Of a stretch of DNA of 64,000 nucleotides, positions 1-13,225 are shown piece by piece. The translations under genes were made by a program, and so were the position numbers. This stretch comes from Rhodoplanes serenus (GTDB lineage: Bacteria; Pseudomonadota; Alphaproteobacteria; Rhizobiales; Xanthobacteraceae): positions 1 through 64,000 of the forward strand of contig WNKV01000015.1 in assembly GCA_009720755.1 (NCBI GenBank), given 5' to 3'. The stretch's first letter is position 1. Every line of letters starts with the position of its first letter. Below the pieces are notes generated by a model. It worked only from the letters and a program-made list of their open reading frames with translations, had not been told where the DNA came from and searched no databases.

Positions 1-20
1 CGCCACCGCCGCGCGCGCGG

Positions 21-1331
21 GTGCTGATGCGCACGCTCGCCGCCGCCGCGCTCGCCGCGGCCGGCGGCCTCGGGGCGGCGACGCTGCCGTGGCGCGCCGC
101 CATCCCGCCGATCCCACGGCCCGACCCCGCGGTGTTCTCGGCCGCGACGCTGGCGCGCGGCGAGGCGCTGGCGCATCTCGGCGCCTGCTTCGCCTGTCAC
201 ACGGCGACCGACGGCGTGCCGCTCGCCGGCGGGCGGCCGATCGCGACGCCGTTCGGCACCATCACCAGCCCCAACATCACGCCCGATCCGGAGACCGGCC
301 TCGGCGCGTGGTCCTATCCGGCGTTCGAGCGGGCGATGCGCGAGGGCCTGCATCGCGACGGCCGCCACCTCTATCCGGCCTTTCCCTACACCTCGTATGC
401 CAAGGCGACCGATGCCGATCTCCAGGCCCTCTATGCCTTCCTGATGTCGGTGCCGGCGGTGCGCAACCCGACGCCGCCGGCCGCGTTGGCGTTCCCGTTC
501 GATCAGCGGCCCCTGATGGCGCTGTGGAACACCGCGTTTCATCGCGCCCAGCCGTTCGTGCCCGATCCGTCGCGCTCGGACCTGTGGAACCGCGGCTTCT
601 ATCTGGTCGAAGGGCTCGGCCACTGCTCGGCCTGCCACTCGCCGCGCAATCCGCTCGGGGCCGAGGAGAAGGGCGCCGCGCATCTTTCGGGCGGCACCGG
701 CGACGGCTGGGAGGCACCGGCGCTCACCACCGCGAACCGCGCCCCGGTGCCCTGGGACGAGGCTGCGTTCTACGACTATCTGCGCACCGGCTGGTCGCCG
801 CATCACGGCGCCGCCGCGGGGCCCATGGCCGAGGTGGTGGCCGGCCTGAAGGCGCTGCCCGATGCCGACATCCGCGCCATGGCGCATTATCTCGCCGATC
901 TCGACGGCCCGCGGCCGGACGCCGCCACGATCGCGGCACGCGCCGCCGCGGTCGAGGCGGAGGCCGCCGCGCGGGCCGCGACGCCGGTCTCGCTCGCCGG
1001 CGCCCGGATGTTCGCGGGCGCCTGCGCGGTGTGCCACGAGCCGGGGCAGGGCGGCCCGCTGCACGGGGTACGGCCGTCGCTCGCCACCGTCACGGCGCTG
1101 CAATCCGACAGTCCCGAGACGGTGCTGCGGGTGATCCTCGAAGGCAGCCATCCGGCCGGGCTCGCCGGGATCGCGGCGCTCGGCGCCATGCCGGCCTTCG
1201 CGGAGCATCTCTCCGACTGGCAGATCGCCGAGCTCGCCCGCTACCTGCGCCACCGCTTCGCACCGGCCCGGGCGCCGTGGTCCGATCTCGACGCCACGGT
1301 GGCGCGGCTGCGCGCCGGCGCGGCGCCTTGA
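21..1331 (+). CDS. Three-heme cytochrome c, probable electron-transfer part of nicotinate dehydrogenase; may be truncated at the window edge
   Basis: Three CXXCH heme-c motifs are visible (CFACH near residue 56, CSACH near 203, CAVCH near 337), the layout of cytochrome subunits or C-terminal domains that take electrons from periplasm-facing molybdenum hydroxylases and aldehyde/alcohol dehydrogenases. An Ala-rich hydrophobic stretch at the N-terminus could be a signal peptide or membrane anchor. The frame has no stop before base 1, so the GTG at 21 or ATG at 27 is only the first start inside the window. The protein could be the tail of a NicB-like fusion whose molybdopterin part lies to the left. 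Its position just ahead of hnr suggests it serves the first hydroxylation of nicotinate; that role is inferred. Confidence 0.75.
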   Translation: MLMRTLAAAALAAAGGLGAATLPWRAAIPPIPRPDPAVFSAATLARGEALAHLGACFACHTATDGVPLAGGRPIATPFGTITSPNITPDPETGLGAWSYPAFERAMREGLHRDGRHLYPAFPYTSYAKATDADLQALYAFLMSVPAVRNPTPPAALAFPFDQRPLMALWNTAFHRAQPFVPDPSRSDLWNRGFYLVEGLGHCSACHSPRNPLGAEEKGAAHLSGGTGDGWEAPALTTANRAPVPWDEAAFYDYLRTGWSPHHGAAAGPMAEVVAGLKALPDADIRAMAHYLADLDGPRPDAATIAARAAAVEAEAAARAATPVSLAGARMFAGACAVCHEPGQGGPLHGVRPSLATVTALQSDSPETVLRVILEGSHPAGLAGIAALGAMPAFAEHLSDWQIAELARYLRHRFAPARAPWSDLDATVARLRAGAAP

Positions 1332-1352
1332 CAGGACGGCGACCATGCCGGA

Positions 1353-1373
1353 CCATTTGTACACTAACGATCT
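1353..1373. promoter_or_regulatory. Candidate MarR operator upstream of hnr
   Basis: The 16-bp core CATTTGTACACTAACG (1354-1369) is an imperfect palindrome. Read on the minus strand, the surrounding 21 bp match 11712-11732 upstream of the transporter operon at 17 of 21 positions. It lies about 55 bp before the hnr start. A MarR gene sits in the same operon region. Binding is inferred. Confidence 0.5.
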
Positions 1374-1426
1374 TGCCGGCCCTCGCGGTCGCGTCGCGGC
1401 ACGGGGCCATGCCCGACAGGGACGCC

Positions 1427-2929
1427 ATGACGCTTCAACCCGCGCGTGACGACACCGCCCACACGGCCGACGGAAAGGTGCGCTGCGACGCCTGTCCGGT
1501 CACCTGCTGGATCCGGCCCGGCCTCGCCGGCGCCTGCGACCGCTACGCCAACCGCGACGGCGAGCTGGTGCGGGTCGACCCGCACGTCATCCTGCAACGC
1601 ACACTCGACCAGGGCGGCCGGGTGGTGCCGTTCTCGCGCCGCGCGGCCGAATGGGCCGGCGAGATCCTGTCGGACGACGCGCCGCTGTTCGTCACCGCCA
1701 TCGGGGCCGGTACCACCTATCCGGACTACAAGCCGGCGCCCTTCATCGTCTCGGCCGAGGTCGACGGCGTCGACATGGTGACGGTGGTCACCGAGGGCAT
1801 CTTCAGCTACTGCGGCGTCAAGGTGAAGGTCGACACCGACCGCTGGCTCGGCCCCGAGCAGGCGACGGTGCGGGCGCAGGGCGAGGCGGTCGGCCACGTC
1901 ACCACCGGCGAGTACGGCTCGCAGATGCTGTCGCTCGGCGGCGTGCATCACCTCACCGGCGGCTCCAAGAAGGAGGGCCGCGTCACCTGCGACACGCTGC
2001 TGGAGCTGTCCAACGGTAAGCCGGTCGAACTCGTCGTCGACGGCGGCTCCACCATCGTGGTGGAGGCCGGCAAGCCGCCGGTCATCAACGGCGTGCCCGA
2101 GGAGCGCATGCGGGTCGGCTGCGGCTCCGCCACCATCGGCATCTTCGCCAAGCAGTGGCTCGGCAAGGTCGACGAGGTGGTGGTGGTCGACGACCACATC
2201 ACCGGCGTGCTGTCGGAGCACCAGTCCGGCAAGGTGCTCGGCATTCCGCCGACCGGCATCCGCATGAAGGGGCGGCGCTCGACGCCCGGCCGCTACTTCC
2301 AGGTCGCCGAGCCCGGCACCGGCTGGGGTGGCACCGACATCTCCGATCCGCTGTCGATCCTCGGGGCGTTCGATCCGGCGGTGGCGCGCCCGGGCCTGAC
2401 GCTGTTCATGGTGTCGACCACCGGCGAGCACGCGGCGTTCTATCGGCTCGACGAGGCGCTGCGTCCGGTCGAGGCCGAGATGCCGGCGGCGCTGCGCGCC
2501 TCCACCGAGCGCATCAAGGAGAACTGCGAGCCGGCGCTGTCGACGGTGCTGTTCATGGCCGGGGCCGGCGGCTCGCTGCGCGCCGGCGTCACCGAGAATC
2601 CGGTGCGGCTCACCCGCTCGGTCAAGGACACGCTGACCCGCGTCACCTGCGGCGGCGCGCCCGTCTATGTGTGGCCGGGCGGCGGCATCACCTTCATGGT
2701 CGATGTCACCCGGCTGCCCGCCAATGCGTTCGGCTATGTGCCGACACCCGCGCTGGTGGCGCCGATCGAGTTCACGTTGCGGCTCGACGACTATGCGGCG
2801 CTCGGCGGCCACATGGATCACGTCCGCCCGCTGTCGACGCTCGGTGAGCACGAGCGCCGGCTGGTGCCGCAGCTTCCCGGCAACACCTGGCCGTTCGGCC
2901 GCGAGGGGCCGCCCTGGGGGCGCGAGTGA
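1427..2929 (+). CDS. hnr: 6-hydroxynicotinate reductase
   Basis: This 500-residue protein resembles the 6-hydroxynicotinate reductase of Eubacterium barkeri, which reduces 6-hydroxynicotinate to 1,4,5,6-tetrahydro-6-oxonicotinate in nicotinate fermentation. Near the N-terminus a cysteine set (CDACPVTC, then GACDR) could bind an iron-sulfur cluster; further cysteines occur in FSYCGV, RVTCDT and RVGCGS. The long Gly-rich body has no common domain I can name. The identification is strongly helped by the enamidase in the neighbouring operon, which acts on the product. ATG at 1427 was chosen; an in-frame ATG at 1409 is possible. The stop overlaps the next start in GTGA, so the two genes are translationally coupled. 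Confidence 0.85.
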   Translation: MTLQPARDDTAHTADGKVRCDACPVTCWIRPGLAGACDRYANRDGELVRVDPHVILQRTLDQGGRVVPFSRRAAEWAGEILSDDAPLFVTAIGAGTTYPDYKPAPFIVSAEVDGVDMVTVVTEGIFSYCGVKVKVDTDRWLGPEQATVRAQGEAVGHVTTGEYGSQMLSLGGVHHLTGGSKKEGRVTCDTLLELSNGKPVELVVDGGSTIVVEAGKPPVINGVPEERMRVGCGSATIGIFAKQWLGKVDEVVVVDDHITGVLSEHQSGKVLGIPPTGIRMKGRRSTPGRYFQVAEPGTGWGGTDISDPLSILGAFDPAVARPGLTLFMVSTTGEHAAFYRLDEALRPVEAEMPAALRASTERIKENCEPALSTVLFMAGAGGSLRAGVTENPVRLTRSVKDTLTRVTCGGAPVYVWPGGGITFMVDVTRLPANAFGYVPTPALVAPIEFTLRLDDYAALGGHMDHVRPLSTLGEHERRLVPQLPGNTWPFGREGPPWGRE

Positions 2930-3897
2930 GCCCGGCGGCGCCGGCCGGCGCGTCGCCGCCGCACGCGCGCGTGCGGCAGCCACAGGCTCGCCTGCCCCAG
3001 GCTCGCCTGCCACAGGTGCGCCTGCTGCCGGACGGCCGCCGCCTGCATCTCCAGGACGGCCCGATCGATCTCATCATCGAGGCATTCGGGCCGCGAGAGG
3101 CCGTCGAGACCGCCTACCGGGCCGCCGTGCGGCGGCTGACCGGCCTGCTCGACGCGCTGTGCGCCGAGCTGCCGCGGCTGCGGGCACCGGCGGGTCCGGA
3201 TCAGCCGGCGCTGTCCGATGCGGTCGCCCGCCGCATGGCCGAGGCGGTGGCGCCCCACGCGGTGCGCGGCTTCATCACCCCGATGGCGGCGGTGGCGGGC
3301 GCGGTCGCCGATGCGGTGCTGGCCGCGATGATCGCGGCGACCGGCCCGGCGCTCGCCCGCGCCTATGTCAACAACGGCGGCGACATCGCGCTGCATCTCG
3401 CGCCCGGCACGCGCTTCGTCACCGGCCTCGTCGACCGACCCGACCGGCCGGGCCTGTTCGCCACCGCGACGATCGCGGCCGAGGATCTTGTGCGCGGCAT
3501 CGCCACCTCGGGGGCGCGCGGGCGCAGCTTCTCGCGCGGCATCGCCGATGCGGTGACCATCCTGGCGCGCGACGCCGCCACCGCCGACGCGGCCGCGACC
3601 GTGGTGGCCAACGCGGTCGATCTCGATCACCCCGGCATCGTGCGGGTGCCGGCCTGCACGCTCCAGCCCGACAGCGATCTCGGTGACCGTCTCGTCACCC
3701 GCGTGGTGCCGCCGTTGCCGCCGGCCGAGATCGCCACCGCGCTCGACCGTGGTGTCGCGATGGCCGAGGCGTTGCGCGCCGAGGGGCTGATCGCCGCCGC
3801 GGCGCTGCATCTGCAAGGGTTCACCCGCACGGTCGGGCCGTTGCGCCATGACCGCGACACGCCCCTCGTGACCGATCGACCGGAGAGCCCGCCATGA
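2926..3897 (+). CDS. UPF0280 family protein (ApbE-like fold), function unknown
   Basis: The 323-residue product belongs to the UPF0280 family, related in fold to the ApbE flavin transferases. Recognisable family stretches are AYVNNGGDIALHL (about 145-157), the GIATSGARGRSFSRG region (about 190-204) and ADAVTILA just after it. The GTG start overlaps the hnr stop, and the stop overlaps the next ATG in ATGA, so it is locked into the hnr operon. A role in cofactor supply or maturation of hnr is a guess from this coupling and the ApbE relation. The N-terminal 35 residues are low complexity and include a 15-bp tandem repeat encoding QARLP-type units, so the true start might be further in. Confidence 0.8.
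   Translation: MSPAAPAGASPPHARVRQPQARLPQARLPQVRLLPDGRRLHLQDGPIDLIIEAFGPREAVETAYRAAVRRLTGLLDALCAELPRLRAPAGPDQPALSDAVARRMAEAVAPHAVRGFITPMAAVAGAVADAVLAAMIAATGPALARAYVNNGGDIALHLAPGTRFVTGLVDRPDRPGLFATATIAAEDLVRGIATSGARGRSFSRGIADAVTILARDAATADAAATVVANAVDLDHPGIVRVPACTLQPDSDLGDRLVTRVVPPLPPAEIATALDRGVAMAEALRAEGLIAAAALHLQGFTRTVGPLRHDRDTPLVTDRPESPP
2981..3025. repeat. 15-bp tandem repeat, three units, in coding sequence
   Basis: Units at 2981-2995, 2996-3010 and 3011-3025 differ at one to three positions (CACAGGCTCGCCTGC type). The period is a multiple of three, so the reading frame of the UPF0280 gene is kept. Confidence 0.85.
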
Positions 3898-4478
3898 CGC
3901 CGAAGATCCGCAAGCTCGTCACCGTGGTGGACGAGACGCTGACCGAGATGGGCCGCGCGGTGAGCCCGCCGGTGCGCCGTGCCGCCGCGGTGGCGGTGAT
4001 CGAGAACCCGTTCGCGGGCCGCTATGTCGAGGACCTGGCGCCGTTGATCGACATGGGCGAGGCGCTGGGGCAGCTTCTCGCGGAGCGCGCCGTGGCGGCG
4101 CTCGGGGTGGCGGGCGACGTCTGCGAGAGCTACGGCAAGGCGGCGCTGGTCGGTGCCGACGGCGAGCTGGAGCATGCCGCCGCGCTGCTGCATCCCAAGA
4201 TGGGGGCGCCGGTGCGCAAGACGCTCGGCAAGGGGGCGGCGCTCATTCCGTCGTCGAAGAAGCGCGGCGGTGTCGGCGCCGAGCTGGACATCCCGCTCGG
4301 CCACAAGGACGCCGCCTTCGTGCGCAGCCATTTCGACGGCATGCAGGTGGCGGTCGCCGATGCGCCGCGCGCCGACGAGATCGTGGTCGCGGTGGCGGTG
4401 ACCACCGGCGGGCGGCCGCTGCCGCGGGTCGGCGGCCTCACCAAGGACCAGATCAAGGGCGAGGACGGGTTGCGCTGA
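3894..4478 (+). CDS. DUF1185 ("amino acid synthesis") family protein
   Basis: This 194-residue protein matches the DUF1185 family, often named amino acid synthesis family protein although no reaction is established. The sequence is a single globular unit with AVIENPFAGRYVEDL (about 35-49) near the start, a HPKMGAPVRKTLGKG stretch around 100 and a C-terminal VVAVAVTTGGRPLPRVGGL segment. It is the third gene of a tightly overlapping hnr-UPF0280-DUF1185 set (ATGA overlap upstream, 46 bp to the MarR gene downstream). The arrangement suggests these three proteins are needed together. I cannot give a reaction. Confidence 0.8.
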   Translation: MTPKIRKLVTVVDETLTEMGRAVSPPVRRAAAVAVIENPFAGRYVEDLAPLIDMGEALGQLLAERAVAALGVAGDVCESYGKAALVGADGELEHAAALLHPKMGAPVRKTLGKGAALIPSSKKRGGVGAELDIPLGHKDAAFVRSHFDGMQVAVADAPRADEIVVAVAVTTGGRPLPRVGGLTKDQIKGEDGLR

Positions 4479-4524
4479 GCGATCGGCCGGTCGCGGCCGT
4501 GATCGCACGCCACGGGGGCAGGGC

Positions 4525-4971
4525 ATGGGAGCCAAGATCGCGAAGCCGAAGCCGGGCGCGGACGCCTATCGGCTCGACGAGCAGGTCGGCTTCGTGCTGC
4601 GCCAGGTGAGCCAGCGTCACACCGCGATCTTCGCCGAGCGGATCGGCTGCGATCTCACCGCCATGCAGTGGGCCGTGCTGGCCAAGCTGCGCGAGATCGG
4701 CGCGACGTCGCAGAACCAGCTCGGCCGCGCCACCGCCATGGACGTCGCCACCGTCAAGGGCGTGGTCGACCGGCTGCGCGGTCGTGGCCTGGTGGATATC
4801 GACTCCGACCCGGACGACGCGCGCCGCCGCGTCGTCGCCCTCACCGACGAGGGCATGGGGCTCGTCGATGCCCATGCCGCGGCGGCGCTAGCCATCTCGG
4901 ACGAGACGCTGGCGCCGCTCACCGCCGCCGAGCGCAAGACCTTCCTGGCGCTGCTTCTGAAGCTGCGGTGA
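4525..4971 (+). CDS. MarR-family transcriptional regulator, probable regulator of the nicotinate genes
   Basis: The 148-residue protein has the MarR winged-helix layout: an N-terminal dimer helix, a recognition region ATSQNQLGRATAMDVATVKG (about 72-91), a wing with DPDDARRRVVALTDEG (about 97-112) and C-terminal dimer helices. It follows the hnr operon by 46 bp. MarR proteins bind 16-20 bp palindromes and are often released by aromatic acids, so a nicotinate intermediate is a likely ligand. The shared palindromes at 1353 and 11712 are the best candidate targets. Family membership is clear; target and ligand are inferred. Confidence 0.85.
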   Translation: MGAKIAKPKPGADAYRLDEQVGFVLRQVSQRHTAIFAERIGCDLTAMQWAVLAKLREIGATSQNQLGRATAMDVATVKGVVDRLRGRGLVDIDSDPDDARRRVVALTDEGMGLVDAHAAAALAISDETLAPLTAAERKTFLALLLKLR

Positions 4972-5013
4972 GTGCGGTCCGATCGGATCTCGCTCTACGA
5001 AGCGACGAAGGTC

Positions 5014-5160
5014 CGTGTCCCGGACGCGATGCGGCGTGCGAAGCCGGTGCATCGCGAGCCGGGACCCAGGCCGGTCGGGCCTGCTTTGCATGAGAGGTGG
5101 GTCCCGGGTCTGCGGCGCACCACGACGCCATGCGTCGCGCTGCACCGCGCCCGGGACACG
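5014..5160. repeat. Dispersed inverted-repeat element (CGTGTCCCGG ... CCGGGACACG type)
   Basis: Two arms face each other: 5014 onward begins CGTGTCCCGGAC and contains CCGGGACCCA, and the second arm contains TGGGTCCCGGGT and ends CCGGGACACG at 5160. The ends are inverted copies of one another. Similar elements are common between genes in Bradyrhizobium relatives. It fills much of the spacer between the convergent MarR and ena genes. Confidence 0.7.
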
Positions 5161-5217
5161 CGGCTTGTCGCGCGGCGGCGTTGCCGCCCTCGTACCAGCT
5201 GGCTGATCGACTTGGCG

Positions 5218-5355
5218 GTCATTCCGGGGCGGCGTGCAGCGCCGCACCCGGAATCCAGCCGAGAGTTCCGAGTTTGCCGCTGGGTTCCGGGTTCGCGGCG
5301 GAGCCTGCGCCCGGACGGCGCGAAGCGCCGATCCGGGTGCCGCGCGCCGGAACGA
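5218..5355. repeat. Second dispersed inverted-repeat element (GTCATTCCGGGGC ... CGCCGGAACGAC)
   Basis: The outer ends GTCATTCCGG and CCGGAACGAC are near inverted copies. Internal pieces (CACCCGGAATCC, GGGTTCCGGGT) give further pairing. It ends just before the enamidase stop and could act as a bidirectional terminator for the convergent MarR and ena transcripts. Confidence 0.65.
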
Positions 5356-5382
5356 CAGCGAACCGATCACCCGGAAACAGAA

Positions 5383-6576
5383 TCACACCACCTCGGGCAG
5401 CCTGGTTGCCGGCGGGGTGTTGCGGCTGCGGCCGGTGCGCACGATGCCATCGATGATGGTCATGCCGATGCCGGGCAGGTCGCCGAGCCGGATCGAGTCG
5501 AGGAAATCCTTGCCGGCGGAGTGCTGCGCCTTGTCCATGATGACGAAGTCGGCGGCGCGACCCACCTCGATCAGCCCGACGTCGAGCGCGCGCAGTCGCG
5601 CCGTGTTGCCGGTGGCGAAGCAGAACGCGATCTCGGCCGGCACCTCGCCGAGCGACGACAGCATCGACACCATGCGGGCGATGCCGAGCGGCTGCACGCC
5701 GGAGCCGGCCGGCCCGTCGGTGCCGAGGATGATGCGATCGAGCTGGTTCATCTCGCGGGCGAGGCGCAGCGTGTAGAGCGCGGCGCGCTCGTTGCCGTTG
5801 TGGACCAGCTCCAGGCCGCGCCGGCAGCCCTCGCAGATGCAGCGGATCTCGGCGTCGGGCAGTGCCGTGTGGCCGCCGTTGACGTGGCCGACCACGTCGG
5901 TGTCGGCTTCGAGCACCATGTCGGCGCCGATCAGCCCGGAGCCGGGGATCGACGGTCCGCCGGTGTGGATGGTCGACTGGATGCCGTACTGGCGCGCCCA
6001 CCCCACCATCTGGCGCGCATTGGCGCCGTCCTTGACGCCCCCGAGCCCGACCTCGCCGAGCAGCCGCACGCCGGCCGCGGCCAGCTCGCGGAAGTCGTCC
6101 TCGGTCATGCCGTGCTCCAGCACCGGCGCGCCGGCATGCAGCTTGACGCCGGCGACCCGGAAGGCGTCGAAGCAGCGTTGTGCCGTGATCGCCATCGCCT
6201 TGAGGCCGACGATGTCGCGCGGCCGGCCGGGCGTGTGCACCTCGCCGGCCGAGATCATCGTGGTGACGCCGCCGTGCAGGCTCGAGTCGATCCAGCCGAG
6301 CTGGTTCTGGCGCGGCGTCCAGTCGCCGGCGACCGGATGGACGTGGCTGTCGATCAGCCCCGGCGCCACCACGGTGCCGTGGGCATCGACCACCGTCGTG
6401 GCGCCCTCGGTGTCGACGTCCTTGGCGCGGCCGATGGCGGTGATGCGGCCGTCCACCGCCACGATGGTGTCGGCGTCGAGCACCGGGTTCTCCAGCGCGC
6501 CGGACAGCATCAGCCCGATGTTGCGGATCACCAGCTTGGTCGGGCCGGCCGGGCCGGCGGGCGCGTCGTTCGCCAT
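5383..6576 (-). CDS. ena: Enamidase (6-oxo-1,4,5,6-tetrahydronicotinate hydrolase)
   Basis: The 397-residue protein is an amidohydrolase that matches Eubacterium barkeri enamidase along its whole length. Shared landmarks are the metal motif DSHVHP (about 75-80), SSLHGGVTTMISAGE (about 93-107), GVKLHAGAPVLEHG, HTGGPSIPGSG, GHVNGGHTALP, LGTDGPAGSG and the ending SRNTPPATRLPEV. The known enzyme hydrolyses tetrahydro-6-oxonicotinate to 2-formylglutarate and ammonia, the step after hnr. It is the last gene of the minus-strand transporter operon, 30 bp after livF. No gene for later steps (2-formylglutarate reduction or oxidation) is in the window. Confidence 0.92.
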   Translation of the reverse strand: MANDAPAGPAGPTKLVIRNIGLMLSGALENPVLDADTIVAVDGRITAIGRAKDVDTEGATTVVDAHGTVVAPGLIDSHVHPVAGDWTPRQNQLGWIDSSLHGGVTTMISAGEVHTPGRPRDIVGLKAMAITAQRCFDAFRVAGVKLHAGAPVLEHGMTEDDFRELAAAGVRLLGEVGLGGVKDGANARQMVGWARQYGIQSTIHTGGPSIPGSGLIGADMVLEADTDVVGHVNGGHTALPDAEIRCICEGCRRGLELVHNGNERAALYTLRLAREMNQLDRIILGTDGPAGSGVQPLGIARMVSMLSSLGEVPAEIAFCFATGNTARLRALDVGLIEVGRAADFVIMDKAQHSAGKDFLDSIRLGDLPGIGMTIIDGIVRTGRSRNTPPATRLPEVV

Positions 6577-6606
6577 GGGGGCTCTCCTTGGTCTCGGGGG
6601 CGCGTC

Positions 6607-7317
6607 TCACACCGCCAGATAGGCGTCGCGGATGTCGGGCCGCGCCTCCAGCTCGGCGAGCGAGCCGGAGAAGCGCACGCGGCCCTTCTCCAGGATCACG
6701 GCGCGGTCGGAGATCAGCCGGGCGAAGTGCAAGTTCTGCTCGGACAGCACGATCGCCAAGCCCTCGCGCTTCATGGTCAGGATGGCGGCCGCCATCTGCT
6801 CGACGATCTTGGGCGCGAGCCCTTCGGACGGCTCGTCGAGCAGCACCAGCGAGGGATTGCCCATCAGCGTGCGGGCGATGGTGAGCATCTGCTGCTCGCC
6901 GCCGCTCATCCGGCCGCCGGGGCGCTTGCGCATCTCGGCGAGATTCGGGAACAGCGCGAACAGCGTCTCGGGCGTCCAGCCCGGCGCGCCGGGGCGCGGC
7001 GCCTGGCGGCCGACCATCAGGTTCTCCTCGACCGTGAGGTCGGCGAAGATGCGGCGGTTCTCCGGCACGAAGCCGAGGCCGCGGCGGGCGATCGCGTAGG
7101 TCGGCAGCCGGGAGACGTCGTCGCCCTCGAACAGCACCGTGCCGGAGCGCCGCTCCACCATCGCCATGATGGACAGGAAGGTGGTCGACTTGCCGGCGCC
7201 GTTGCGGCCGAGCAGTGCCACCACCTCGCCGGGTGCGACCGTGAAGGCGACGTCGAACAGGATATGGGCCTGGCCGTAATAGGCGTTGAGATTCGCCACG
7301 GCGAGCTTGTGGGTCAT
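6607..7317 (-). CDS. livF: ABC transporter ATP-binding protein, LivF type
   Basis: The 236-residue ATPase shows Walker A GRNGAGKST (about 38-46), signature MSGGEQQML, Walker B LVLLDEPSEGLAP and the FVPENRRIFADLTVEENL stretch typical of LivF. It works on the inner face of the membrane with LivG to drive import through LivH/LivM. Start ATG at 7317 overlaps the livG stop (ATGA). The enamidase gene directly downstream suggests nicotinate or a related pyridine carboxylate as substrate rather than leucine; that is inference from context. Confidence 0.93.
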   Translation of the reverse strand: MTHKLAVANLNAYYGQAHILFDVAFTVAPGEVVALLGRNGAGKSTTFLSIMAMVERRSGTVLFEGDDVSRLPTYAIARRGLGFVPENRRIFADLTVEENLMVGRQAPRPGAPGWTPETLFALFPNLAEMRKRPGGRMSGGEQQMLTIARTLMGNPSLVLLDEPSEGLAPKIVEQMAAAILTMKREGLAIVLSEQNLHFARLISDRAVILEKGRVRFSGSLAELEARPDIRDAYLAV

Positions 7318-8132
7318 GCGCGCGCCTCCGGCTGCGGTCCGGACGTCGACGCATCCGCGCGCGCCTCCTGGTGGCGGGCGTCGTAGACCAGCCCCTCGCC
7401 AAGATAGATCGCGCGCACCTCGGGGTCGCGGCGCACCGTCTCGGGCGGCCCTTCGGCGATCAGCAGGCCGCGGGACAGCACCATCATGCGATCGGCATGC
7501 TCGAACACCACGTCCATGTCGTGCTCGGTGAACAGCACGCCGATGCCCTCGGCCCGGGCGATCTCGGCGGTGAGCCGCATCAGGCCGACGCGCTCGCGCG
7601 GCGCCATGCCGGCGGTCGGCTCGTCCATCAGGAGGAGCTTCGGCCGGTTGGCGAGCGCGACGGCGAGCTCCAGCCGCTTCAGGTCGCCATAGGCGAGCTC
7701 GGCGGCGGCGCGGTCGGCATCGGCCGCCATGCCGACCAAGGCGAGCAGACGGTCGGCCTCGTCGCGGCCGCGGGTGTCGGCGCGTCCGAACCAGCGGCCG
7801 AGCGCGCCGCCGTGCGACATCAGTGCCACCTGCACGTTCTCGCGCACCGTCATCGAGCCGAAGGTGGCGGTGATCTGGAAGGTGCGGCCGACGCCCTTGC
7901 GCCACACGGCGCGCGGCGGCAGGCTGGTGGTGTCGACGCCGTCGATGCGGATGCGCCCGGCATCCGGCCGGATCTGGCCGTTGAGCATGTTGAAGCAGGT
8001 GCTCTTGCCGGCGCCGTTGGGGCCGATCATCGCGAGGATCTCGCCACGGTCGAGCCCGAACGAGACGTGGCGCACGGCGGCCAGGCCGGCATACGACTTG
8101 GCGAGATTCTCCACGTCGAGCAGGCGCGTCAT
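7314..8132 (-). CDS. livG: ABC transporter ATP-binding protein, LivG type
   Basis: The 272-residue protein has Walker A GPNGAGKST, the Q-loop region GRTFQITATFGSMTVRENV, Walker B LLLMDEPTAGMAP and H-loop TEHDMDVVF. The C-terminal extension after IYLGEG is typical of LivG. ATGA overlaps on both sides tie it to livF and the permease gene. Confidence 0.93.
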   Translation of the reverse strand: MTRLLDVENLAKSYAGLAAVRHVSFGLDRGEILAMIGPNGAGKSTCFNMLNGQIRPDAGRIRIDGVDTTSLPPRAVWRKGVGRTFQITATFGSMTVRENVQVALMSHGGALGRWFGRADTRGRDEADRLLALVGMAADADRAAAELAYGDLKRLELAVALANRPKLLLMDEPTAGMAPRERVGLMRLTAEIARAEGIGVLFTEHDMDVVFEHADRMMVLSRGLLIAEGPPETVRRDPEVRAIYLGEGLVYDARHQEARADASTSGPQPEARA

Positions 8133-10087
8133 GGCCGCGTCCTCCCGGCGACGGTGGCGGGCGAGGGGGCCGGCGCCATCGTGCCTGCCGGCGGCTCGGC
8201 CGCGGTGGCGTCGGCGGACGCTTCTGCGTCGCTCGGCCCGGCGCCGCGTCGCGCCGTCAAGCGGTCGCGCCAGTCGGCCAGCGTGCCGACGATGCCCTTC
8301 GGGAAGGCGACCACCAGCGCCACCACGACGGCGCCGAGCACCAGCTTCGAGTAGTCGGTCTGGCTGATCAGCCACATCGCCAGCGCCTTGAACACCACGG
8401 CGCCGACGATCGGTCCCAGCACCGTCTCGACGCCGCCGAGAAGCACCATGACGAGACCGTCGACCGAGGTCGGGATGGCCATCACGTCGGGGAAGATACT
8501 GCCCTTCAGGAACGCGAACAGCGCGCCGCCGAGGCCGGCTGCGGTGCCGGCGATCACGAAGGCGATCCACTGCACGCGGCGGCGGTCGATGCCGATCGCC
8601 TCGGCGCGCAGCTCCGAATCGCGCACCGCCCGCAGTGCGTAGCCGAACGGCGAGAAGATGACCATGTGGAGCCACACCAGCGCCGGTGTCACCACCGCCA
8701 GGGTGAGCCAGAAGAACGCCGCCGGGCTCGCCGCGAAGGCGTCCGGCCAGAGGCCGAGAATGCCGTTGTCGCCGCCGGTGACGTCGACCCACTGGAACGC
8801 GATCGACCACACGATCTGCGAGAAGGCCAGCGTCAGCATGGCGAAGTAGACGCCCGACAGCGACACCGCGAACCAGCCGACCACGGCGGCGCCGAGCGCG
8901 GCGAGCAGTGGCCCGGCCGCGATCGCGGCCAGCATCGGCAGGCCGGCGGCCTTCACGACGAAGGCGGCCCCGTAGGCGCCGAGGCCGAAATACGCGGCAT
9001 GGCCGAAGGAGGCGAGGCCGCCGACCGACATCAGGAGATGCAGGCTGGCGGCGAACAGGACGAAGATCAGGATCTCGCTCGCCACCGTGAGGGCGTAATG
9101 GCCGAGCCACAGCGGCATCAGCGCCACCGCGGCCACCACGGCGGCGGCGACGGCGATCTCGCCCGGCGCGAGCGGTCGCCACGGCCGCACCGCCATGCCA
9201 ATCGATGCCTGGGCGGGCGGCGGCCGGGTGCCGAACAGGCCCCACGGGCGCACCACCAGCACCACGGCCATCACCAGGAACACCAGAACCAGCGAGATCT
9301 TCGGCAGCACCAGGATGCCGAAGGCGTTGAGCTGCGACACCAGGATGGCGGCGACGAAGGCGCCGGTGGTGGAGCCGAGCCCACCGATCACCACCACCAC
9401 GAACGCCTCGACGATGATGCGCAGGTCCATGCCGTGATTGACGGCGTCGCGTGGGATCTGGAGCGCGCCGCCGAGCGCCGCGAGGAACACGCCGAGCCCG
9501 AACACGCCGGTGAACAGCCATTTCTGATTGATGCCGAGCGCCGCCACCATGCTGCGATCGAGCGTCGCGGCGCGCACCAGCACGCCCCAGCGGGTGCGGT
9601 GGAACAACAGCCACAGCCCGGCCAGCACCAGCGGCCCGAGCGCGATCAGGAACAGGTCGTAGGAAGGAATGCGCTTGCCGAAGATCTCCACCGCGCCGGC
9701 GAGCCCGGGCGCGCGCGGGCCGACCAGATCCTCGGGACCCCAGATCAGCAGCACCAGATCCTGCACCATCAGGGTGACCCCGAAGGTGGCGAGAAGCTGG
9801 AACAGCTCGGGCGCCTGATAGATGCGCCGCAGCAGCGTCATCTCCAGCAGACAGCCGACGATCGCCACGATGGCGGCGGCGGCGAGCAGCGCGAACCAGA
9901 ACCCGAACGCGCCGGTGAACCGATCGGTGAGCGTGTAGGCCACATAGGCGCCGAGCATGTAGAAGGCGCCGTGGGCGAAGTTCACGATGCGGGTGACGCC
10001 GAAGATGATCGACAGGCCGGAGGCGACGAGGAACAGCGACGCGGCGCTCGCGAGGCCGGTCATGAACTGGACGAAGACGAGCTGCAT
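8129..10087 (-). CDS. Fused LivH-LivM permease of a branched-chain-amino-acid-type ABC transporter
   Basis: One 652-residue chain carries both permeases. Residues about 1-290 are LivH-like (GLSIIFGVTRIVNFAHGAFYMLGAY near the start; LGSTTGAFVAAILVSQL near 245). Residues about 310-610 are LivM-like (SVGGLASFGHAAYFGLGAYGAAF, then RDSELRAEAIGIDRRRVQWIAF). Many hydrophobic segments fit an inner-membrane protein. The tail after LADWRDRL is low complexity. Fusions of this pair are known but less common than separate genes. The stop overlaps the livG start. A 244-bp gap separates it from the binding-protein gene. Confidence 0.9.
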   Translation of the reverse strand: MQLVFVQFMTGLASAASLFLVASGLSIIFGVTRIVNFAHGAFYMLGAYVAYTLTDRFTGAFGFWFALLAAAAIVAIVGCLLEMTLLRRIYQAPELFQLLATFGVTLMVQDLVLLIWGPEDLVGPRAPGLAGAVEIFGKRIPSYDLFLIALGPLVLAGLWLLFHRTRWGVLVRAATLDRSMVAALGINQKWLFTGVFGLGVFLAALGGALQIPRDAVNHGMDLRIIVEAFVVVVIGGLGSTTGAFVAAILVSQLNAFGILVLPKISLVLVFLVMAVVLVVRPWGLFGTRPPPAQASIGMAVRPWRPLAPGEIAVAAAVVAAVALMPLWLGHYALTVASEILIFVLFAASLHLLMSVGGLASFGHAAYFGLGAYGAAFVVKAAGLPMLAAIAAGPLLAALGAAVVGWFAVSLSGVYFAMLTLAFSQIVWSIAFQWVDVTGGDNGILGLWPDAFAASPAAFFWLTLAVVTPALVWLHMVIFSPFGYALRAVRDSELRAEAIGIDRRRVQWIAFVIAGTAAGLGGALFAFLKGSIFPDVMAIPTSVDGLVMVLLGGVETVLGPIVGAVVFKALAMWLISQTDYSKLVLGAVVVALVVAFPKGIVGTLADWRDRLTARRGAGPSDAEASADATAAEPPAGTMAPAPSPATVAGRTRP

Positions 10088-10331
10088 CGGCGGTCACGTC
10101 GGCTGCTGGTGTGAAGGATGTGACGGCGCGGTCGGCGGCGGCACGGTCTGCGGCTTCATCGTCGGCGGCGGCAGGGTCGGCCCGACCGCCGCATTTCGGA
10201 TGCTGCCGCGCCGCTGCCTGCGCCCGTGAGACGGGGCGTGCCCGGTCGCATCTCCGTGTCGTCCGGGTGCCCCCCGTGCCGCGGCGCGGCGGCGCGGAGG
10301 GCCGGGGATGCGGACGGGATGGCGCGCCGCG

Positions 10332-11534
10332 TCAGTTCTGCGGCCGCATCTTCTTCACCTCGTCGTCGCTCGGCAGATACTTGGCGCCGTCACGATAGAC
10401 GAAATCGACCATCACGCCCTTGCCGTCCTTGACGGCGGTCTTGCCCACGAAGGCGCCGAGCGTCGCCTGGTGGTCGATGGCGCGGAACACGATCGGGCCG
10501 AACGGCGTCTCGACGCCGATGCCGCGCGCCGCCTCGATCAGCTTGTCGGTGTCGGTCGAGCCGGCCTTGGTGAGAATGGCGGCCACCGACTTCATCAGGG
10601 CGTAGCCGACGATCGAGCCGAGCCGCGGATAGTCGTTGAACTTGGCCTGATAGGCTTTCAGAAAGGCGTCATGCTCGGGCGTCCCGACGCCGTTCCACGG
10701 ATAGCCGGTGACGATCCAGCCCTCCGGCGTCTCGGCCTTGAGCGGATCGATGTATTCGGGCTCGCCGGTCAGGAAGCTCACCACCGAGCGGCCCTGGAAC
10801 AGCCCGCGGGTGTTGCCCTCGCGCACGAACTTCACGAGGTCGGGGCCGAAGGTGACGTTGAGGATGGCCTCCGGCTTGGTGGCGGCGAGCGCCTCGGCCA
10901 CGGCGCCGGCGTCGATCTTGCCCTGCGGCGGCCACTGCTCGCCGACCCATTCGATGTCGGGACGCTTGGCCGAGAGGAGCTGCTTGAACACCGCCACTGC
11001 CGACTGACCGTACTCGTAATTGGGCGCGACCGTAGCCCAGCGCTTCGCCGGCAGCTTGGCGGCCTCCTCGGCCAGCATCGCGGCCTGCATGTAATTGGAG
11101 GGACGCAGCCGGAAGGTGTAGCGATTGCCCTTCGACCACACGATGGCGTCGGTGAGCGGCTCGCCGGCCAGGAAGAACATCTTCTTCTGCGCGGCGAAGT
11201 CCGAGAGCGCGAGGCCGACATGGGAGAAGAACGCGCCGGTGAGCATGACGACGCCCTCGCGCGACACCAGCTCGTTGGCCGCCGTCACCGCGTCGGCCGG
11301 TTTGCCCGCGTCGTCCTTGGAGATCACCACCAGCTTGTCGCCGTTGATGCCGCCCTTGGCGTTGATCTCCTCGACGGCGAGCTGCCATCCCTTGCGGTAC
11401 GGCTCGGTGAAGGCGGGCAGGCCCGAGTAGCTGTTGATCTCGCCGATCTTGATCTCGGCGGCGAGCAGCGGAGCCGGCAGCGCCAGGGCGAAGGCGGCGG
11501 CGACCAGCAGGCGGCGGGTGGCGGTTGGCGACAC
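10332..11534 (-). CDS. Periplasmic substrate-binding protein of the LivFGHM-type transporter
   Basis: The 400-residue product is a type I periplasmic binding protein (Leu/Ile/Val-binding fold): signal peptide RRLLVAAAFALALPAPLLAAE, then EIKIGEINSYSGLPAFTEPYRKGWQLAVEEINAKGG. I chose the GTG at 11534 because AGAGGAA sits about 9 nt upstream and the signal peptide begins right after it; the frame stays open to 11660 but that stretch looks non-coding. It heads the operon SBP-livHM-livG-livF-ena. Ligand is not known from sequence; nicotinate or 6-hydroxynicotinate is the contextual guess. Confidence 0.9.
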   Translation of the reverse strand: MSPTATRRLLVAAAFALALPAPLLAAEIKIGEINSYSGLPAFTEPYRKGWQLAVEEINAKGGINGDKLVVISKDDAGKPADAVTAANELVSREGVVMLTGAFFSHVGLALSDFAAQKKMFFLAGEPLTDAIVWSKGNRYTFRLRPSNYMQAAMLAEEAAKLPAKRWATVAPNYEYGQSAVAVFKQLLSAKRPDIEWVGEQWPPQGKIDAGAVAEALAATKPEAILNVTFGPDLVKFVREGNTRGLFQGRSVVSFLTGEPEYIDPLKAETPEGWIVTGYPWNGVGTPEHDAFLKAYQAKFNDYPRLGSIVGYALMKSVAAILTKAGSTDTDKLIEAARGIGVETPFGPIVFRAIDHQATLGAFVGKTAVKDGKGVMVDFVYRDGAKYLPSDDEVKKMRPQN

Positions 11535-11571
11535 GGCGGGGGGTTCCTCTCTTCGTCTGGTCGGAACAGGA

Positions 11572-11610
11572 ACTCGTCGAATCGGAAACTCGTCGATCAG
11601 ATACTCGTCG
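11572..11610. repeat. Three direct repeats of ACTCGTCG with 15-16 bp period
   Basis: Copies start at 11572, 11588 and 11603, lying 38-77 bp upstream of the binding-protein start. They may be a regulator array or another of the short tandem duplications seen in this window. Confidence 0.6.
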
Positions 11611-11711
11611 CTCGGCCGAGATCGCTCGCCGTCATGCCGTCGCGCGCGGACATCTGTCACGATGCGCGATGCGGCGTCGCATCGGCACCGATCACGCCGC
11701 TCGGCCCGGCG

Positions 11712-11732: not shown

Positions 11733-12109
11733 TATCAACTCCGCCGGGGCGCGCAAGAACTAAACAGAGGCGATCTCCGGACATTGTTGCATATTGTTTG
11801 GTCGTGTCACGGGTCTGATGTGCACTGCGGAATGTGGCACGGCGCCTCCGTCGCGACTCGCCTCACCGAGCCCGTGCCGATCGATGCCGGCGCGAACGCG
11901 CACTCGACGCTGCGCCGCGGCATGCGCACGGATCGCCGATTGTTGCGGTTGTCGCGGCCGTGTCATGCGCCGGCGCCGCGGCGACACCATGCCGCTGGCG
12001 CACGGCCGATCCTGGCTCACGGCCGGCGTCGCACGAAAGCGTTTGCGCCGGCCCGCGCGGCGGCGCACACACGGTTCGATCGTCGTGCTTCGTTCCGGGA
12101 TATGTCGCC

Positions 12110-13225
12110 ATGCCGGCCCGCTTCACCGCCCTCGTCGACAGCCTGCCCGCCACCGTGCCGTTCGTCGGACCGGAAGCGCAGGAACGCGTCCGCGGCCGTC
12201 CGTTCCGCGCCCGCATCGGTGCCAACGAGAACGGGTTCGGGGCCTCGCCGCTGGCCGTCGCCGCCATGGCGGCGGCTGCCGCCGAGGCATGGAAGTACTG
12301 CGATCCCGAGAGCCACGACCTCCGCCACGCGCTGGCGGCGGCCCATGAGGTCACGCCTGCCCATGTGATGGTGGGCGAAGGGATCGACGGCCTGCTCGGG
12401 CTGGTGGTGCGGCTTGTGGTGGAGCCCGGGACCCCGGTGGTCACCTCGCTCGGCGCCTACCCGACCTTCGCCTATCACGTCGCCGGATTCGGCGGCCGTC
12501 TCGTCACGGTGCCGTACCACGACGACCGCGAGGACCCCGAGGCGCTGCTCGCCGCGGTGCGCCGCACCGGCGCGCCGCTCGTCTACTTCGCCAATCCCGA
12601 CAATCCGATGGGCACTTGGTGGTCGGCCGAGGCGGTGGCCGAGCTGGTGGCGGCGCTGCCGGCCCACACGCTGCTGCTGCTCGACGAGGCCTATGCGGAG
12701 TTCGCGCCCGCCGGGGTGTCGCCGCGGCTCGCTCCCGACGATCCGCGGGTGCTGCGACTGCGGACCTTCTCGAAGGCCTACGGGCTCGCCGGAATCCGGG
12801 TCGGGTTCGCGGTCGGAGCGCCGGCCGTCATCGCCGCCTTCGACAAGATCCGCAACCATTTCGGCGTCAACCGCATCGGCCAGGCGGGAGCGCTGGCGGC
12901 GCTCGGCGATGGCGATCATCTGGCGCGTGTGCGTGCCGCGGTGTCGGCGGCGCGGTCGCGGATCGGGGCGCTCGCTCGGGCCAACGGGCTCCTGCCGCTG
13001 CCCTCCGCCACCAACTTCGTCACCGTCGATTGCGGCCGTGACGGCGCTCATGCGCGCCGCGTGCTCGACGCGCTGCTGGCGCGCGACGTGTTCGTCCGCA
13101 TGCCCGGCGTGGCGCCGCTCGATCGCTGCATCCGGGTCGGCTGCGGACGGCCCGAGGAGCTCGATGTGCTGGAGCAGGAATGGCCGGCGGCGCTCGCCAC
13201 CGCCACGGCGGCCGCGTCCGGCTGA
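12110..13225 (+). CDS. Pyridoxal-phosphate aminotransferase, histidinol-phosphate aminotransferase-like
   Basis: The 371-residue protein is a fold-type I aminotransferase of the HisC group. It shows IGANENGFGASPLAV (about 35-49), YFANPDNPMGTW (about 160-171), LLLDEAYAEF (about 189-198) and the PLP lysine in TFSKAYGLAGIRVGF (about 221-235), with the C-terminal substrate Arg in CIRVGCGRPEEL. ATG at 12110 was chosen because the upstream extension is Arg-rich and unlike the family. It could act in histidine or aromatic amino acid synthesis or in a specialised pathway; the missing his gene context leaves this open. Confidence 0.85.
   Translation: MPARFTALVDSLPATVPFVGPEAQERVRGRPFRARIGANENGFGASPLAVAAMAAAAAEAWKYCDPESHDLRHALAAAHEVTPAHVMVGEGIDGLLGLVVRLVVEPGTPVVTSLGAYPTFAYHVAGFGGRLVTVPYHDDREDPEALLAAVRRTGAPLVYFANPDNPMGTWWSAEAVAELVAALPAHTLLLLDEAYAEFAPAGVSPRLAPDDPRVLRLRTFSKAYGLAGIRVGFAVGAPAVIAAFDKIRNHFGVNRIGQAGALAALGDGDHLARVRAAVSAARSRIGALARANGLLPLPSATNFVTVDCGRDGAHARRVLDALLARDVFVRMPGVAPLDRCIRVGCGRPEELDVLEQEWPAALATATAAASG

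Follow-up and report, generated by a model that had tools for sequence, protein, structure and literature searches.

The upper nicotinate locus of Rhodoplanes serenus

The stretch analyzed here, hereafter the window, comprises 64,000 nucleotides at the start of contig C6 (WNKV01000015.1, positions 1 to 64,000) of the alphaproteobacterium Rhodoplanes serenus, whose genome amounts to 5.5 Mb in 51 contigs. Genes assigned to the upper part of reductive nicotinate catabolism span window positions 1-11660. From left to right, the plus strand carries the cytochrome end of a hydroxylase, hnr, a UPF0280 gene, AA_synth (DUF1185) and marR; continuing rightward, the minus strand carries ena, livF, livG, a fused livHM and livK, so that marR and ena are convergent.

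1..1331, plus strand: C-terminal part of a fused NicB-like nicotinate hydroxylase large subunit, with membrane anchor and three c-type hemes (contig overlap, open frame, Pfam, relatives)
1427..2929, plus strand: hnr, 6-hydroxynicotinate reductase, 500 aa (relatives, public labels, invariant residues, cysteine list)
2926..3897, plus strand: UPF0280 family protein (NF003322), ApbE-fold partner of Hnr and proposed flavin-maturation factor
3894..4478, plus strand: AA_synth (PF06684, DUF1185; Pfam E 5e-76; PDB 2qtp, 3byq)
4525..4971, plus strand: MarR regulator of the BpsR kind (PDB comparison, pocket residues)
5383..6576, minus strand: ena, enamidase of the amidohydrolase type (2VUN, E 2e-109)
6607..7317, minus strand: LivF-like importer ATPase (open frame and sequence)
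7314..8132, minus strand: LivG-like importer ATPase (open frame and sequence)
8129..10087, minus strand: fused LivH-LivM permease, 652 aa (NCBIfam matches to both halves, under the curated cut-offs)
10332..11660, minus strand: LivK-like substrate-binding protein (Pfam Peripla_BP_6, E 8e-70)

The Liv-type importer genes thus occupy 6607-11660, with LivH and LivM joined in a single protein. The hnr and UPF0280 genes overlap by four bases, as do UPF0280 and AA_synth, an arrangement suggestive of an operon. A preliminary description of this DNA had placed hnr and ena homologues, a MarR regulator and an ABC importer in one locus, and all of these are indeed long open frames with family matches or relatives; its inventory was right for the genes it named and left unnamed the UPF0280 and AA_synth genes between hnr and marR.

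Assignment of the pathway genes

A contig end coincides with the start of the window, whose positions 1-32 are identical to the final 32 bases of contig C8. An open frame crosses this overlap, running from a molybdopterin domain on C8 (L009:6893-9226) into the window cytochrome to give a 1210-aa protein, with a 2Fe-2S subunit encoded ahead of it (L009:6363-6896). This fusion aligns end to end with a single open frame in Rhodoplanes tepidamans (L010). The cytochrome itself (21-1331) contains three CxxCH motifs and matches Pfam Cytochrom_C with E 3e-24, and in 40 of the 41 relatives whose cytochrome match spans at least 250 aa (two shorter matches were excluded) it lies within one frame of more than 1050 codons, L046 being the exception. 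Judged from sequence, the window cytochrome is the tri-heme tail of a NicB-like fused large subunit. The preliminary description was therefore correct in seeing a hydroxylase cytochrome and mistaken in treating it as a separate subunit; its suggestion that molybdenum hydroxylase subunits be sought in the left flank was borne out, as the 2Fe-2S and molybdopterin subunits stand on C8 directly before the cytochrome. With these subunits and the frame across the overlap, the first reaction of the pathway would be present.

Hnr gives no Pfam or NCBIfam match above threshold, though it occurs in 44 of 289 alphaproteobacterial genomes. The best 80 of at least 470 candidate stretches are 70-88% identical to it (Afipia, 79%); the nearest of these 80 is from R. 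tepidamans, at 88% over the best segment, and many of 26 plasmid matches carry the public label '6-hydroxynicotinate reductase'. The protein has nine cysteines in 500 aa, with C20, C23, C27 and C37 in an N-terminal CxxCPxxC cluster. A very weak likeness of residues 129-231 to the T-protein C-terminal barrel was also seen. For Ena, the top PDB match is the enamidase 2VUN, which we take to be from Eubacterium barkeri (E 2e-109, 369 bits over residues 13-395 of 397; the next match scores 31 bits). HVH, GEVGLG and HTGG are identical in the two proteins, while HVNGG and GTDGP align with HINGG and GNDAP, and by this comparison Ena is closely related to the structurally characterized enzyme.

The nearest PDB entries to the MarR protein are 2nnn and BpsR (6pcp/6pco). 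BpsR binds 6-hydroxynicotinate through Tyr15, His23, Arg26 and His32 (PMC6837509). At this pocket the window protein keeps Tyr15, Arg26 and His32, with His23 replaced by Phe (3/4). The three residues are conserved in 60 of 62 MarR rows (window, 55 loci and 6 plasmid loci), the exceptions being the plasmid rows L096 and L115. They are also kept in most clusters with no Ena in view and thus do not discriminate between cluster kinds.

We consider it likely, with a probability of roughly 0.85, that the genes here account for the first three reactions of a reductive nicotinate pathway as well as for uptake and control. A membrane-anchored molybdenum hydroxylase, built from a NicA-like 2Fe-2S subunit and the fused NicB-like molybdopterin/tri-heme subunit, would convert nicotinate to 6-hydroxynicotinate and pass the electrons to the respiratory chain. 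Hnr, as an iron-sulfur protein, would then reduce 6-hydroxynicotinate to 1,4,5,6-tetrahydro-6-oxonicotinate, most likely with electrons from ferredoxin, and Ena would open the ring to give 2-formylglutarate and ammonia. 6-Hydroxynicotinate would release the MarR protein, and UPF0280 would act as an ApbE-fold partner of Hnr, most likely handling its flavin cofactor; AA_synth presumably has a role as well. For the electron donor, support comes from ferredoxin-NADP reductase genes in five of the six intact plasmid clusters viewed and from a 7Fe-type ferredoxin gene in two of five relatives scanned. In the Xanthobacter clusters L059 and L068, a 7Fe-type ferredoxin gene lies on the minus strand at about 3160-3290, between ena and the hydroxylase, and is a candidate donor for Hnr.

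The reductive nicotinate route proposed in the preliminary description is in this way supported at the sequence level by the hydroxylase on C8, the close Ena, three of the four BpsR pocket residues and the match to a published cluster (see below). We regard the locus as genuine: its upper nicotinate pathway is of the published kind and all but complete, and the cluster itself is ordinary; the point worth testing is the near-strict ApbE-fold partner of Hnr.

Hnr and UPF0280 occur together

Of the 289 alphaproteobacterial genomes, 44 contain Hnr, and exactly those 44 contain UPF0280 (NF003322). These counts follow the removal of weak matches, three to Hnr and four to UPF0280; 42 of the 44 UPF0280 genomes exceed the curated cut-off, G064 and G087 having broken matches below it, and broken or stop-containing matches to Hnr or UPF0280 occur in G028, G064, G087, G184, G194, G231 and G281. 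The two genes are adjacent, with fewer than 300 bases between matches, in 43 of the 44, and in G231 both are present as fragments near contig ends. It should be noted that the genome sample is phylogenetically non-independent, and we give the pairing without a probability.

UPF0280 was likewise found on the fetched stretch in 76 of the 80 best Hnr loci, three of these being truncated at a contig end. Of the four loci lacking it, three (L055, L060 and L085) come from genomes that contain a single Hnr and a single UPF0280 above the cut-off in separate places, about 8 kb apart on one contig in L060; L065 is the fourth. Plasmid records gave the same picture, with UPF0280 in all 26 that carry Hnr, many of them near-copies and 12 from Sulfitobacter. 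In a 27th plasmid record with UPF0280, from Hydrogenophaga sp. BPS33 (L096), the gene adjoins a C-terminal remnant of hnr beside IS1071; this plasmid, pBPS33-1, contains repeated IS1071-bearing units with UPF0280 and the cut hnr remnant. In 199 Acidobacteriota genomes, a strong Hnr and a UPF0280 over the cut-off were found in G322 only.

Variation among Hnr clusters

The surroundings of the pair vary. The 106 Hnr rows compared (105 loci plus the window) cover stretches of restricted length, many of which end before the ena position, so that 'neither' does not mean absence: the ring opener is a close Ena in 36 rows and HyuA in 16, 2 rows have a more distantly related amidohydrolase and 52 have neither, and Ena together with HyuA was seen in none of the 106 on the stretches viewed. 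The hydroxylase is of the cytochrome kind in 49, of the FAD-subunit kind in 44 and unseen in 13. Mixed traits occur, with Ena and the FAD kind together in 10 rows and HyuA and the cytochrome kind in 1. It takes 3 changes to place the ring-opener label on the Hnr tree and 7 to place the hydroxylase label, and the window falls, by a quick method, in an Ena-rich part. Since Ena can be swapped for HyuA-type genes, an hnr gene by itself is insufficient to name the ring-opening step. HyuA, often with HyuB, stands where no ena was seen in L113, L114, L115 and 12 of L117-L136, mostly with an FAD-subunit hydroxylase; HyuA-type clusters are a possible variant of the reductive pathway. AA_synth is present in 71 of the 80 best loci, in one copy in 43 (R. 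serenus also has one) and in two copies in 28.

The fold and proposed role of UPF0280

UPF0280 has a predicted ApbE fold over residues 35-320, most of the chain (PDB 1vrm, 4ifw, 7esa, 6nxi and others), and has ApbE-like GGD, ATSG and ADxxxT stretches. In the last of these, presumably the Mg-binding stretch of ApbE, A220, D221 and T225 are invariant in 41 rows. No export signal was obvious by eye. The window protein has no His between TSG and ADxxAT, and one is found somewhere in this interval in 19 of the 40 rows (of 41) that fit the pattern.

COG2122, DUF375 and UPF0280 are names that we take to denote one family, with which the PDB match 2o34 (DVU1097, 'DUF375') fits. Homocysteine synthesis in Desulfovibrio requires COG2122, whose fitness tracks that of DUF39 with r = 0.98 (PMC5764234), and the Methanosarcina acetivorans member MA1715 has been interpreted as a sulfur-trafficking protein (PMC12068725). 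Apart from G322, the Acidobacteriota hold seven distant UPF0280 proteins (62-86 bits) and one very weak match. We searched 29 of the 199 genomes, namely all 9 with any UPF0280 match and 20 without, for HcyBio (PF01837). It was present in exactly the seven genomes with a distant UPF0280, less than 500 bases away in all (in G329 on the other strand); the remaining 22 gave no match, and neither did any of the 289 alphaproteobacterial genomes. A strict HcyBio-UPF0280 rule has a counterexample in the control genome of Synechococcus elongatus, which gave an HcyBio match without an NF003322 match.

We tentatively propose that UPF0280/COG2122 may be a cytosolic ApbE-fold flavin transferase or loader for low-potential, ferredoxin-fed reductases such as Hnr and HcyBio, in place of the sulfur-trafficking interpretation. 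Hnr of E. barkeri reportedly carries a covalent flavin, and since Hnr and HcyBio are both reductive, flavin attachment or loading is the simplest job that UPF0280 could have in common for them. Kinship between Hnr and HcyBio went undetected with two shallow profiles (hhalign probability 0.4%; hmmsearch and shuffles null), which leaves the flavin proposal without that extra strengthening. If the proposal is true, HcyBio is predicted to carry a flavin. In Hnr, the GCGSAT stretch at residues 231-236 is one candidate for the site that bears the flavin. The family, as COG2122, is to our understanding needed for an unsolved step of homocysteine synthesis in Desulfovibrio and methanogens, and an aerobic rhizobium that degrades nicotinate and can be manipulated genetically would be a convenient organism in which to resolve its role.

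Alternative explanations

Several findings weigh against the picture given above. The catalytic His of ApbE, His257 in Vibrio cholerae (PMC12052999), has no counterpart in UPF0280, where the His loop falls in an alignment gap, and the ApbE target motif D-x-x-[ST]-G-A-[ST] occurs in none of 37 Hnr rows (nor in any of 7 HcyBio rows); flavin attachment, if it takes place, would thus proceed by a chemistry unlike that of ApbE. The contig join is based on 32 bases and the R. tepidamans alignment, and the pattern used found no ferredoxin motif in either the window or L009. A close Ena (at least 68% identity) is present in just 18 of the 44 Hnr genomes, so that Hnr alone is no proof of the Ena route, and genome G082 has a close Ena without Hnr. 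As to the pairing, the UPF0280 match in the L055 genome contains one internal stop, and the L065 assembly has Hnr without UPF0280, its hnr ending some 110 bases short of the contig end and the match containing one stop.

The missing catalytic His would suit another possibility, that UPF0280 is a sulfur-trafficking protein, as for MA1715 of methanogens, and supplies Hnr with sulfur or iron-sulfur clusters. Hnr is cysteine-rich, and a persulfide or sulfur-trafficking function has been proposed alongside the requirement for COG2122 in Desulfovibrio homocysteine synthesis (PMC5764234, PMC12068725); we regard this explanation as less likely than not. Linkage alone could also maintain the pair, given its adjacency in 43 of 44 genomes, with UPF0280 as a mere operon passenger. 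However, both genes are retained in the three genomes where they lie apart, and the pair is constant while Ena and the hydroxylase type vary among clusters, and we hold this to be very improbable. A further alternative concerns the substrate: the same cluster build might serve another pyridine carboxylate or a related N-heterocycle, the Hnr family being wider than nicotinate. A close Ena is absent from 26 of the 44 alphaproteobacterial Hnr genomes, and 20 of those 26, viewed over 11.6 to 20 kb, showed a HyuA-type hydantoinase/oxoprolinase in 12, an FAD subunit of another hydroxylase kind in 19, and neither Ena nor the cytochrome on the stretch in any. The R. serenus window, by contrast, has Ena and the fused-cytochrome set and lies where the Hnr tree is rich in Ena, and its MarR protein keeps the BpsR contacts to the carboxylate, ring nitrogen and 6-hydroxy group (but so do most Ena-less clusters). 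For this locus we find a substrate other than nicotinate improbable.

Comparison with known systems

Nicotinate clusters have been described in Azorhizobium caulinodans, Bradyrhizobium (B. japonicum), Rhodopseudomonas palustris HaA2 and strain SG-6C, for which growth on nicotinate via 6-hydroxynicotinate was shown and whose Hnr shares 42% identity with that of E. barkeri (PMC3511419, 2012). As in the text of that paper, the first three steps, an importer and two conserved unknown proteins lie in one cluster in R. serenus; from relatives, we take the two proteins to be UPF0280 and AA_synth. The R. serenus cluster thus fits the published text, in agreement with the preliminary description, which had pointed to a similar reductive route in Azorhizobium. 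It adds one genome to the known list, the cluster type being already in print (PMC3511419). The R. serenus locus is split over two contigs, and in contrast to the Bradyrhizobium loci its hydroxylase is in the same direction as hnr and its ena comes, on the minus strand, after the importer genes.

The R. serenus hydroxylase has the same build as NicAB of Pseudomonas putida, which consists of a 2Fe-2S subunit and a large subunit with a fused tri-heme cytochrome. The later nicotinate pathway of P. putida is oxidative, not reductive. The nicotinate fermentation cluster of E. barkeri, as far as we are aware, shares Hnr and Ena with R. serenus. Its hydroxylase has four subunits including a flavoprotein (PMC10331938), whereas that of R. 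serenus is of the fused cytochrome form. The flavin transferases ApbE, Ftp and FmnB have a fold in common with UPF0280, and differ in that UPF0280 lacks the catalytic His loop and Hnr the target motif. The COG2122 homocysteine proteins (DvMF_0044, MA1715), which we believe to be of the UPF0280 superfamily, likewise appear to partner a reductive enzyme; this partner is HcyBio/DUF39, and the tests showed no sequence relationship between it and Hnr.

Neighboring genes

After the importer, a HisC-type aminotransferase-like gene (judged by eye) is found at about 11834-13225 of the window. On C8, a NadC-like quinolinate phosphoribosyltransferase gene (Pfam; L009:2413-3246) and an ABC transporter of the taurine/sulfonate type by eye (L009:3-2238) lie upstream of the nicotinate hydroxylase, and a 698-aa open frame at L009:3672-5768 has, again by eye, PhnN kinase-like and thymidine-phosphorylase-like domains.
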